DNA from: Gammaproteobacteria bacterium
GTDB lineage: Bacteria > Pseudomonadota > Gammaproteobacteria > JAABTG01
Direction of reading: 5' to 3'
Assembly (NCBI GenBank): GCA_034522055.1
Contig: JAXHLS010000002.1
Location: 1,798,001-1,862,000 of the forward strand
Length of the DNA: 64,000 nucleotides
The position numbers were made by a program, and so were the translations under genes. The notes below the pieces were generated by a model. It was not told the DNA's origin. It was given only the letters and a program-made list of their open reading frames with translations, and searched no databases. How positions within the stretch are numbered: position 1 is the first letter of the stretch; the number at the start of each line of letters is the position of its first letter. Below, in pieces: positions 8,805-55,853 of this stretch.

Positions 8805-9937
8805 TTGCTGGCCCCCTTGGTGGTGGTGGCGCGGCGCTTCCGGGGCGCCGCCTTCTTCTTGACTGCGGCCCGTTTGGGGGCCGTCGCCCTCGCCGCGGCG
8901 GGCGGTGCCTCGGCGCGGGGTGGTGGTGACGGGCTGGCCGCCGGGGCCTGGGCCGGCGCGGCGGCGGGGGCCCTGGCGTGGATCTCCCGGCGCAGTTGTT
9001 GGACGCGTTTCTCGATGCTGTCCACCTCTCGGCGGGTGGGCAGGCCTAGGGTGCCCACCGCCTCGTCCACCATGGTGCGGCCCTGGAGCTTCACCGCCAT
9101 GAGGGCGTTCACCAGCTTGCCGTGGGCGGCGCTGTACTCCTCGGTGAAGACCTGCTCGGCGTAGACCTCTTCGCACACATCCACCCACAGGTCGTAGAGC
9201 CCGCGCAGGGTGGTGATGGTGTCATCGCCGCCGCCCTTCGCCAACAGGGTCTCGCGGAAGCGGTCCACCGAGTTCATGGCGATCTTCGTGAACTGCTCAT
9301 TGTACTCCTGTAAGGCCGCCTGATAGGCCATCAAGGCACGCATGAAGGTCTGGTGTTGCTCCTGGTGCTCGCGGGTGTAGCCGAGGCCCGGGGCCGATAG
9401 GAAACGCTCCACATGCTCCTGGAACATCTCCGTGCCGTCGCCGGGGTCGCTGCCGGGCTTGAAGGCGCCGAGGGCGTCGCCCGGGAAACCGCACAGTACC
9501 GAGGCGCAGCGCTGCCAGGTGTCAACCGGCAGTTCCCAGAAGCTGAACATCTGGTGCAAGGCCTCGCGGCCATCCTTGTCCTTGCCTTGGGCACCCTGGG
9601 CGAACAGGTCCCGCAGGGCGTTCAGGGAGCCCTCCACGGCGGTGGCCCACTGGTTGGGCGGGACAGCGGCGTCCGGCATCAGGCTGTGGCGCAGGGTCTC
9701 TGACGTGCGCATGAACTGCTTGCCCTGTTCCACGAGTTGGTTGTAGAAACCCTGCACCGGATCGGGCGCGGCCGGGGATACCGCCTTCCACCATTGGTCG
9801 AGAGCTTCGCTCCAGGGGTCCTTGCGCGGTTCGGGCTGGGGGCTTCCCAGCTTGGACAGTTGCTGCCAGGCATCCCAGTAGCGGTGTTGGGCCTGGAGCC
9901 AGTTGGTGGTCCAGTCGGTGATGGGGTCGTCAGCCAT
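8801..9937 (-). CDS. phaE: Class III PHA synthase subunit PhaE with a basic Ala/Pro/Lys tail
   Basis: A 378-residue PhaE, the non-catalytic partner that stabilises and activates PhaC. The body is helical, opens with DWTTNWLQAQHRYWDAW and includes the conserved YNEQFTKIAMNSVDRF stretch. From about residue 320 it becomes an Ala/Pro-rich linker and ends in a strongly basic tail (KRAAVKKKAAPRKRRATTTK) reminiscent of histone H1-like or PhaF tails. I start at 9937 (MADDPITDW): GGAGA lies upstream, and 26 in-frame codons further upstream look non-coding. It is first in the pha cluster, with a PhaR-like palindrome about 200 bases upstream. It overlaps phaC by four bases. Confidence 0.93.
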   Translation of the reverse strand: MADDPITDWTTNWLQAQHRYWDAWQQLSKLGSPQPEPRKDPWSEALDQWWKAVSPAAPDPVQGFYNQLVEQGKQFMRTSETLRHSLMPDAAVPPNQWATAVEGSLNALRDLFAQGAQGKDKDGREALHQMFSFWELPVDTWQRCASVLCGFPGDALGAFKPGSDPGDGTEMFQEHVERFLSAPGLGYTREHQEQHQTFMRALMAYQAALQEYNEQFTKIAMNSVDRFRETLLAKGGGDDTITTLRGLYDLWVDVCEEVYAEQVFTEEYSAAHGKLVNALMAVKLQGRTMVDEAVGTLGLPTRREVDSIEKRVQQLRREIHARAPAAAPAQAPAASPSPPPRAEAPPAAARATAPKRAAVKKKAAPRKRRATTTKGASK

Positions 9938-53189: not shown

Positions 53190-53207
53190 AGGGTGGGGGA
53201 TGGGAGG

Positions 53208-53373
53208 TGGGAATAGTGAATAGGGAATAGTGATTAGTGAATAGTGAATGGTGAATAGGGAATAGTGGGTGGTGAATGGTGAATAGTGGATGGTGAATAG
53301 TGAATGGTGAATAGGGAAATGGGAATGAGGGGTAGGGAGTAGGGAATAGGGAATGGTGAAAGGGACATGGGTG
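53208..53373. repeat. Heptad minisatellite (GTGAATA/GTGAATG)
   Basis: Some 160 bases made almost entirely of degenerate seven-base units GTGAATA, GTGAATG and GGGAATA, nearly devoid of C on the plus strand. It fills the gap between the Pat-like gene and the convergent secreted-protein gene. No hairpin terminator is evident. Confidence 0.85.
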
Positions 53374-53798: not shown

Positions 53799-53900
53799 GG
53801 TGTTCACCTCCAGGGGTTCGATGGCGGCCGAGGATTCGACCTTGGAGAGCATCATTCCATGGTGGGGATGAACGGGAACTGAACGCGTATCTGGGGTCGT

Positions 53901-53967
53901 ATTTGGGGTCAGAGTAAAAACCTGCTGTTTTTACTCTGACCCCAAATGTTCTGACCCCAAATGTTCA
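53901..53967. repeat. Perfect 20-base-arm hairpin repeat, copy 1
   Basis: ATTTGGGGTCAGAGTAAAAA (53901-53920) pairs perfectly with 53928-53947 around the loop CCTGCTG. It is followed by a direct half-repeat CTGACCCCAAATGTT (53951-53965). The type is known from REP-like elements mobilised by RAYT (IS200-like) transposases. Copy 2 is at 55788-55853, on the far side of the AbiE pair. Confidence 0.9.
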
Positions 53968-54024
53968 GGATGATCTCAAACTTGGCGCTCTTGGCTTGGT
54001 GAGAGGAACTTCTCCTCTCTACAC

Positions 54025-55020
54025 TCACGAATTCTGCTGGCGAGCCCCGTTTATTTCGTCTTGGAGTCCTTGGATGGCCGTCAGCACCTCGCCGATCTTC
54101 GGCTGCTCCCCGAATATCATAGTCGCCATAGACCGGTAGTCAGCCTCTATGGCGGCAAGCACGTGTCCTTCCGGAACCAGGCGCATGGTTCCCGGCGCCG
54201 CCAAATCGTAGCGCGCCCATCCACGAGGATAGAACCGTTGCTTGAACTCCACCACGTTGGCCAGCAGTTCCAGATCGGCGAGCGCGGCGTCCTTTGCCGG
54301 TGATCGCGCCATTCTCGCCAGGTCATAGTAATGGCGCGAGTAACGGGGTGGCTGGGGCCTGTCCTCCGGCCGATGGGCCTCATGATGAAGGATGGTGGCC
54401 TTTTCCCAGAACGTCCGTTCCGCCTTGATCACCCGGACAGCGCAACTCGAGCGCTCGAACACGTTTGGAAAGGCCTCGGCGGCATAGCTGCTGATGGTCC
54501 GTTCCTCGTTGGGAAGCCAGGAAGCGAGCGGACCAATCTCCAGGCGTACCTCGGGGCGCAGATAGCCCGCGTTAAAGGCCGCCGGGTACCGGACGTTGAT
54601 GACGTGCCCATCGGCGCCATCGACCCCGCAATGGCAGACACCGTCCAGGGCCATGGCGATCAACGCGAGCAACTCCCTGGCGATATACGTCTCCGCCTGT
54701 TCGTCGATGGCCTTGTTCAGCGAGTCCTGCTTCGTCTTCGACCGCTCGGCCAAGGGGTCCTCCCCTTCTAGCACCCGCCAGTCCAGGATCAAGTCGATGT
54801 CTTCGGAGAACCGCTCGATCAAACCGTAGACCTTGGACAGGCTGGTGCCGCCCTTGAACATCAGCAACGGCGCTAGCTGGGGCGCCTGGAAGATCCGACC
54901 GAGAACCCAGGTCACCCAGAAGTCCTTCTCCACCACCGCCGGGGTGGTCCCCTTGACGGCCGCTGTCTCGGAGAACAGGTCGCGCCGTTCTCCAGGGGAA
55001 AGGCGGGCGACTCGGTCCAT
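54025..55020 (-). CDS. abiEii: AbiEii-type nucleotidyltransferase toxin
   Basis: A 331-residue toxin of the AbiEii/AbiGii (DUF1814) family. The nucleotidyltransferase motifs are clear: FKGGTSLSKVYGL and, just after, RFSEDIDLILD with two catalytic Asp. A later conserved KAERTFWEKATILHHEAHR supplies the Lys/Glu motif. These toxins transfer nucleotides (to tRNA in studied relatives) and act in phage abortive infection. The ATG overlaps the antitoxin stop by one base. Confidence 0.93.
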   Translation of the reverse strand: MDRVARLSPGERRDLFSETAAVKGTTPAVVEKDFWVTWVLGRIFQAPQLAPLLMFKGGTSLSKVYGLIERFSEDIDLILDWRVLEGEDPLAERSKTKQDSLNKAIDEQAETYIARELLALIAMALDGVCHCGVDGADGHVINVRYPAAFNAGYLRPEVRLEIGPLASWLPNEERTISSYAAEAFPNVFERSSCAVRVIKAERTFWEKATILHHEAHRPEDRPQPPRYSRHYYDLARMARSPAKDAALADLELLANVVEFKQRFYPRGWARYDLAAPGTMRLVPEGHVLAAIEADYRSMATMIFGEQPKIGEVLTAIQGLQDEINGARQQNS

Positions 55021-55628
55021 CAGTTGGCCTCCCGGCAGGCCCGTTTGATGACCTGGAGGACCCAGGTGGTCACAGTTCGGGTTTCCTTGAGGATACGCCG
55101 GCAGGTATTGCGGTCCAGCCGCTTGCGTAGGGCCTCGACGACGGTCTCGTTCACGTGCTCGGGGCCGAGGGCCTTGATAGCCTGGACCAAGAGGCCGCTT
55201 TCCCTGACCTGGAACCCCACGTCTTTCAGTGCGGACTTCTTGAATGCCAGGGTGGTTCCCCGGACGTCGTACAGGCGGTTCGGCCCATCGGAGAGATAGA
55301 CCCAGCGCCCCGGCACTTGGCTGGACAGCCCCAGCAGGTTCAACGCCGCATCCCCGGATGGGAGGATTCGCCAGTTGAACTTCCGAGCCAAGGCGTGGGC
55401 CACTTGGTCCATGTCCGGGCTCAGAATCTGGCCCAGCAACTCACTGTAGCGGGGATAGTCATAGACACCGCGGTACACCCGCCGGATGGTGCCGGCGCGC
55501 GCGAGGCTGGACAGGGCCTGGTGGATGTTGGCCTCACTGAAATCCGGGGCGAAGTCCGCCTTGGTGAAGGCCCACCCCCTGCCGCGCCCGTATATCCTTG
55601 ATATTATTTTTTTTTCAACAGGTTGCAC
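55020..55628 (-). CDS. abiEi: AbiEi-type (DUF6088) antitoxin
   Basis: A 202-residue antitoxin with an N-terminal winged helix (IISRIYGRGRGWAFTKADFA, then HQALSSLARAGTIRRVYRG) and a C-terminal domain (VYLSDGPNRLYDVRGTTLAF). AbiEi antitoxins bind inverted repeats in their own promoter and silence the pair. Translation is coupled to the toxin gene. Upstream DNA (55629-55787) is AT-rich and unlike the neighbouring genes, consistent with horizontal acquisition. Confidence 0.9.
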   Translation of the reverse strand: MQPVEKKIISRIYGRGRGWAFTKADFAPDFSEANIHQALSSLARAGTIRRVYRGVYDYPRYSELLGQILSPDMDQVAHALARKFNWRILPSGDAALNLLGLSSQVPGRWVYLSDGPNRLYDVRGTTLAFKKSALKDVGFQVRESGLLVQAIKALGPEHVNETVVEALRKRLDRNTCRRILKETRTVTTWVLQVIKRACREAN

Positions 55629-55787
55629 GATTTTTGAGTGCTGATCTTTTCAGGAAAAACGAGTGCTTTTTCTGAAATGTAGCGCGCCAAGGGTCGAGAT
55701 GCCAAATAATAGAATAACAGGGCAGGATAACAGGGGAAGATGATGAAACGGTTGGGGCAGCGGTATGTCCAGTACGTCAACCGGAAG

Positions 55788-55853
55788 ATTTGGGGTCAGA
55801 GTAAAAACAGCAGGTTTTTACTCTGACCCCAAATGTTGTGACCCCAAATGTTG
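55788..55853. repeat. Perfect 20-base-arm hairpin repeat, copy 2
   Basis: Arms identical to copy 1 (55788-55807 and 55815-55834), but the loop is CAGCAGG, the reverse complement of copy 1's CCTGCTG. It is followed by TGACCCCAAATGTT in the same orientation as in copy 1. Together the two copies bracket 54025-55628. The rest of the 270-base gap 55629-55898 holds no gene. Confidence 0.9.

Follow-up and report, generated by a model that had tools for sequence, protein, structure and literature searches.

Hairpins of a TIRtron-like repeat family on both sides of an abiE gene pair, with loops in opposite orientation

In a window of 64,000 nucleotides from a gammaproteobacterial genome (contig JAXHLS010000002.1, positions 1,798,001 to 1,862,000, forward strand), an abiE toxin-antitoxin gene pair lies between two nearly identical hairpins whose loops are reversed relative to each other. 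Here, we find that the hairpins are almost certainly TIR dimers, that is, back-to-back ends of a TIRtron/TIRYT element. They represent a known kind of small mobile repeat and happen to stand on both sides of abiE; co-mobilisation of the gene pair by the hairpins is unsupported. The whole locus is probably explained by non-autonomous TIR dimers that are independent of abiE, with the reversed loop a property of the palindrome. All coordinates below refer to the window unless a genome or contig is named.

The two hairpins and what lies between them

The hairpins belong to a 65-nt unit that occurs twice as a direct repeat, 91% identical, at 53901–53965 and 55788–55852. In each unit, two perfect 21-nt arms (ATTTGGGGTCAGAGTAAAAAC / GTTTTTACTCTGACCCCAAAT) enclose a 5-nt loop to form a hairpin; the loop reads CTGCT in the left hairpin (53901–53947) and AGCAG in the right (55788–55834). 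Outside the inverted loop, the two units differ by one base. To the right of both hairpins, and in direct orientation, stands a half repeat, GTT[C/G]TGACCCCAAATGTT, which reads TCTGACCCCAAATGTT at 53950–53965 and, 1 nt off the left copy, TGTGACCCCAAATGTT at 55837–55852. A degenerate half repeat (ATCTGGGGTCGT), recognised by fold and sequence at 53889–53900 on the left of the left hairpin, is predicted to pair with the right half repeat. These features, like the dispersed repeat and the abiE upstream region below, are given without strand. Repeat and fold analysis bears out much of a preliminary description of this DNA, which had reported the hairpin pair at these positions, the inverted loops, the shared half repeat and perfect arms of 20 nt. 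The arms are indeed perfect, although their length is 21 nt; the loops given there, CCTGCTG and CAGCAGG, are the 5-nt loops plus the closing C-G pair, and are exact reverse complements; and the half repeat is common to both copies, though with one substitution.

Folded as single-stranded DNA, the hairpins reach −30 and −26 kcal/mol (z of −10.5 and −8.5 versus shuffles), and chance is excluded as the origin of the arms. An exact 5-nt reverse complement is expected about once in 1024 for unrelated loops. The motif is found at ~8 loci in the genome that contains the window (G000; 5.14 Mb, 7 contigs), where the window pair is the only close pair of dimers. If ~8 loci were placed randomly, the chance of two falling within 1.9 kb would be ~2%. 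We do not take the hairpins to be ordinary terminators, because no intrinsic-terminator-like site was found within 53.85–55.9 kb. No Rfam family was found in the window at 53.0–56.4 kb, the hairpin had no match among phages, plasmids or viral contigs, and a full-text literature search with the motif letters returned unrelated papers only.

The gene pair occupies the minus strand. abiEii (54025–55020) encodes a predicted nucleotidyltransferase toxin, 331 aa, of a type IV toxin-antitoxin pair (PF08843, E 1.6e-43; PADLOC AbiEii, E 6.7e-107), and abiEi (55020–55628), with a GTG start, encodes a DUF6088-type antitoxin/regulator of 202 aa (PF19570, E 2.3e-31; PADLOC AbiEi, E 1.4e-59). Position 55020 is shared by both ORFs. 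Upstream, an AT-rich region (55629–55732) contains an imperfect inverted repeat, TTTCAGGAAAAA/TTTTTCTGAAA, which may serve as an operator; as a hairpin, it is no stronger than shuffles. We read the abiE genes of the window as a type IV toxin-antitoxin pair in its own right, and not as a passenger that brings its own ends. Searches for a donor returned, among long matches, a best AbiEii of 46.5% identity on plasmids and of 38% in viral contigs.

It had been stated that only the AbiE pair lies between the hairpins. AbiE does lie there, but two smaller sequences had been omitted. Directly inside the left hairpin, a dispersed ~80-bp repeat (53967–54052) extends across the final codons and the stop codon of abiEii; this repeat, with stem GAGAGGAacTTCTCCTCTC, has 40 matches listed in its own genome (window copy included) and one in a congener (G001). 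A candidate for a retained AbiEii tail in that congener (C1:82258) was rejected as a copy of the same dispersed repeat. On the inner side of the right hairpin, and adjoining it, lie 53 bp of RAYT gene remnant (55733–55785, plus strand) that read MMKRLGQRYVQYVNR and are 51/53 identical (96%) to a decayed gene of this type at G000:C2:1452720 (L023). The block is a repeat mosaic, and a segment that gathers small repeats in this way fits independent insertions. Elsewhere in the window, a degenerate 7-bp tandem array (GTGAATA/GGGAATA) occupies 53205–53370; similar arrays recur in the same genome and its family.

A transposase with the same ends

Contig 4 contains an 801-bp element (C4:8165–8965) whose terminal inverted repeats are the 21-nt sequence of the hairpin arms. 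In this element, the sequence is present as single inverted ends (C4:8165–8185 and 8946–8965) that frame a 296-aa Y1/RAYT-type tyrosine transposase. This protein matches Pfam PF01797 and, with a score below the family cut-off, NCBIfam REP_Tyr_transpos (E 7.5e-20); it carries HVH within TNHVHLLVTP and a tyrosine within QRYIELNPVRAG. A near-identical TIRtron, bracketed by the same 21-nt ends, is present in the congener (L160). TIRtrons have been defined as RAYT-like genes that stand between terminal inverted repeats with a GGGGWSAS motif (PMC3733652), and GGGGTCAG, present in every arm, fits this TIRYT consensus. It is because the same ends frame the contig-4 Y1 transposase, and because of the GGGGWSAS fit, that we identify the window hairpins as TIR dimers with near certainty. 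TIRs have been reported as dispersed singles, dimers and clusters (PMC3733652; PMC6006769), and those of the window family are seen as dispersed singles, dimers and groups.

The suggestion that the hairpins belong to a RAYT-type (Y1 transposase) family, and that the genome be searched for other copies and a RAYT gene, has thus held up well: besides the ~8 motif loci, the genome contains 17 Y1-transposase matches, one of which is flanked by the same 21-nt repeats. Six Y1-transposase matches lie within 24 kb (G000:C2:1761579–1784934), shortly upstream of the window. For TnpA_Y1 subclass 2.1, an HTH-like C-terminal domain (Bac_DnaA_C, HTH_23 or HTH_28) has been reported (PMC6006769); in the 296-aa protein, none of the three gives a Pfam match at E up to 0.5. 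The tetranucleotide GTAG/GTGG is absent from the hairpin foot, which reads GATAT/GATGT/ATTT before TTGGGG.

Several TIR arrangements in the congener deserve mention. Near 1015–1070 of L158 (G001:C209), the TIRs point outward, tail to tail (GTTTTTACTCTGACCCCAAACCT...AGGTTTGGGGTCAGAGTAAAAAC), as if two ends had been joined. At L159 (G001:C284, ~965–1130), terminal half repeats and adjoining sequence are tandemly duplicated at both ends, and at L160 (~1880–1975) this is the case at one end.

The abiE pair and the question of cargo

It had been proposed that AbiE is cargo carried by the hairpins, and that a relative be searched for an empty site lacking 53.9–55.85 kb. Such a site is found in the one congener genome compared (G001): the flanking genes, 82% and 70% DNA-identical, are separated by ~46 bp that contain neither hairpin nor abiE. 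AbiEii has no match in this genome at E 1e-30. Because the congener site lacks both, hairpins and abiE are accessory at the window site. Taken alone, the empty site is compatible with a single composite insertion and does not show movement as a unit.

The distribution of hairpins elsewhere speaks more directly to the question of cargo. The hairpin at C2:983889 of G000 is absent from the orthologous intergene of the congener, and the one at C24:9876 of the congener is absent from G000; in both genomes, cargo-free dimers occupy non-orthologous intergenic places. The hairpin was also recovered, with unrelated neighbours, in 34 stretches from MAGs of Gammaproteobacteria and related groups; most dimers in these stretches, and in genomes rich in the hairpin, stand alone. 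No TGGGGTCAGAGT-like site is found near the two other AbiEii matches of G000, or at 14 AbiEii loci in 13 other genomes. Where hairpins do form close pairs elsewhere, they enclose arbitrary genes. For example, the pair of L098 encloses a glycosyltransferase, those of L100, L221 and L222 hypothetical genes, that of L114 a photolyase-like gene and others (named by reading ORFs), and those of L223 and L225 an amidohydrolase-like and a sulfatase-like gene, respectively (named from translation). The L101 pair encloses VapBC, the sole such case among the close pairs. At L204 (G376:C504), TIRs ~1.7 kb apart enclose a TIRYT gene together with a flavin-reductase-like gene (named from translation), a possible passenger in a TIRtron. 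Three TIR dimers ~1.8 kb apart are seen at 945–7359 of L101 (QNFK01000075.1), a contig that also has several toxin-antitoxin pairs (VapBC, ParDE, Phd-ParE and a second PIN toxin).

Carriage of AbiE by the hairpins is thus unsupported, given the cargo-free copies elsewhere, the AbiE genes without hairpins and the arbitrary genes within other pairs. The preliminary description itself took copies elsewhere without cargo to speak against its proposal, and solo hairpins are found in G000, in G001 and in other MAGs. Local hairpin clusters in other genomes (L100, L101, L114 and G187 contig 18) point to a local bias of insertion or copying, and the window pair is less remarkable for it. The locus illustrates how far local clustering of small palindromic repeats can account for apparent "cargo brackets".

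We therefore consider it likely that the hairpins inserted independently and did not carry abiE as cargo. A Y1 tyrosine transposase (TIRYT, a RAYT/TnpA_REP relative) would act on ends reading ATTTGGGGTCAGAGTAAAAAC and, in trans, would spread dimers via single-stranded DNA. Two dimers with a shared recent parent may have lodged in a repeat-rich accessory segment, and the same segment may also have received the abiE operon. The reversed loop would then reflect either insertion in the opposite orientation or inversion of the spacer by polymerase template switching within the hairpin. Several observations run against independent insertion: the whole block is missing from the congener, as a single composite insertion would give; both copies carry the same rare right-hand half repeat, and the proximity of the two has a chance of only ~2%; and a second toxin-antitoxin pair (VapBC) lies between loop-inverted hairpins in L101.

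It is also conceivable, though unlikely, that homologous recombination or some other transfer brought the abi locus in between pre-existing hairpins, or that one hairpin was made from the other by local copying and gene conversion, the hairpins serving only as homology. In favour of such a scheme are the near identity of the units outside the loop, the local clustering of hairpins in other genomes and the tandem duplication of terminal halves with flank, which recurs in this family (L034, L159, L160). However, the congener's empty site has no hairpin, and the search for a high-identity donor yielded nothing closer than the plasmid AbiEii noted above.

Rather improbable is a composite cargo element, in which TIR dimers served as outer ends and TIRYT moved hairpin-abiE-hairpin as a ~1.95-kb unit into the intergenic site. 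The absence of the entire block from the congener site agrees with this, as do the unusual third half common to both 65-nt units, the RAYT gene scrap that abuts the right hairpin inside the block, and the VapBC pair of L101. Yet known TIRtrons have single inverted ends, not a full dimer per side, and the genome contains one closely matching abiEii and no second copy of the hairpin-abiE-hairpin block. Moreover, dimers as a rule come without cargo, hairpins are missing from the other AbiE loci, and the genes within other close pairs are arbitrary. More generally, TIRYT transposases might move a gene pair that has a full TIR dimer on each side, so that a hairpin-ended composite would disseminate toxin-antitoxin pairs such as AbiE in the window and VapBC in L101; this idea we regard as highly doubtful. 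Were a composite form to be found, defence genes would have a vehicle in a group of transposases that has received little study.

Loop reversal and relation to known elements

Exact loop flips are also seen in two other MAGs, at L101 (945 versus 2737) and L098 (2365 versus 3709). The L101 copies keep short outer flanks (gatgt...acct) in direct orientation around an inverted core. The copies of L100 are direct, and the loops of L114 align better directly. Loop reversal is real, recurrent and ordinary for perfect palindromes. A perfect palindrome has no orientation except in its loop, so an inverted loop can reflect insertion in the opposite orientation. In the window, inversion of the core alone is favoured, because the right-hand half repeat is direct in both copies. 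A study in yeast describes spacer inversion and arm homogenisation through polymerase template switching between inverted repeats (PMC8604942), and we lean towards template-switch inversion as the source of the reversed loop in the window. Co-change of the arms, a weak test of template switching, gives 3 paired versus 25 unpaired changes. Pairing between the outer flanks, scored in 71 hairpins, exceeds that of shuffled flanks (0/5000), an excess that may reflect the full repeat length.

The reversed loops had been read as a possible hairpin-flip signature of single-strand processing. The flip itself stands, and recurs; special processing is not called for, since either insertion orientation or template switching suffices. 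If the transposase actively processed the hairpins, in a flip-flop such as terminal-hairpin replicons show, the exact core inversions in three genomes and the direct outer flanks of L101 would fit; this is improbable, as insertion orientation or template switching yields the same pattern, direct-orientation copies also exist (L100, L114) and no terminal replicon is present. In these loci, the core of a TIR dimer can clearly be seen inverted, and a congener supplies both the empty site and a control free of cargo.

How does the locus compare with known systems? Like the AbiE type IV toxin-antitoxin system (PMC3985639), the pair is bicistronic, AbiEi-AbiEii, with overlapping genes and a toxin of the AbiEii nucleotidyltransferase family; it differs in that the antitoxin is of the DUF6088 subfamily. 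The REPINs or REP doublets of RAYTs are likewise short inverted hairpin doublets with a related transposase and no cargo, whereas the window hairpins lack the GTAG/GTGG foot and their half unit is not itself palindromic. With the TIRtron/TIRYT elements (Di Nocera et al. 2013, PMC3733652; TnpA_Y1 subclass 2.1, Quentin et al. 2018, PMC6006769), the family shares a Y1 gene between long inverted repeats with GGGGWSAS, and repeats dispersed as singles, dimers and clusters. Set apart from these, the present family has a low copy number, ~8 loci; the HTH-like C-terminal domain of subclass 2.1 goes undetected in its transposase by Pfam search; and here two dimers flank an unrelated gene pair.
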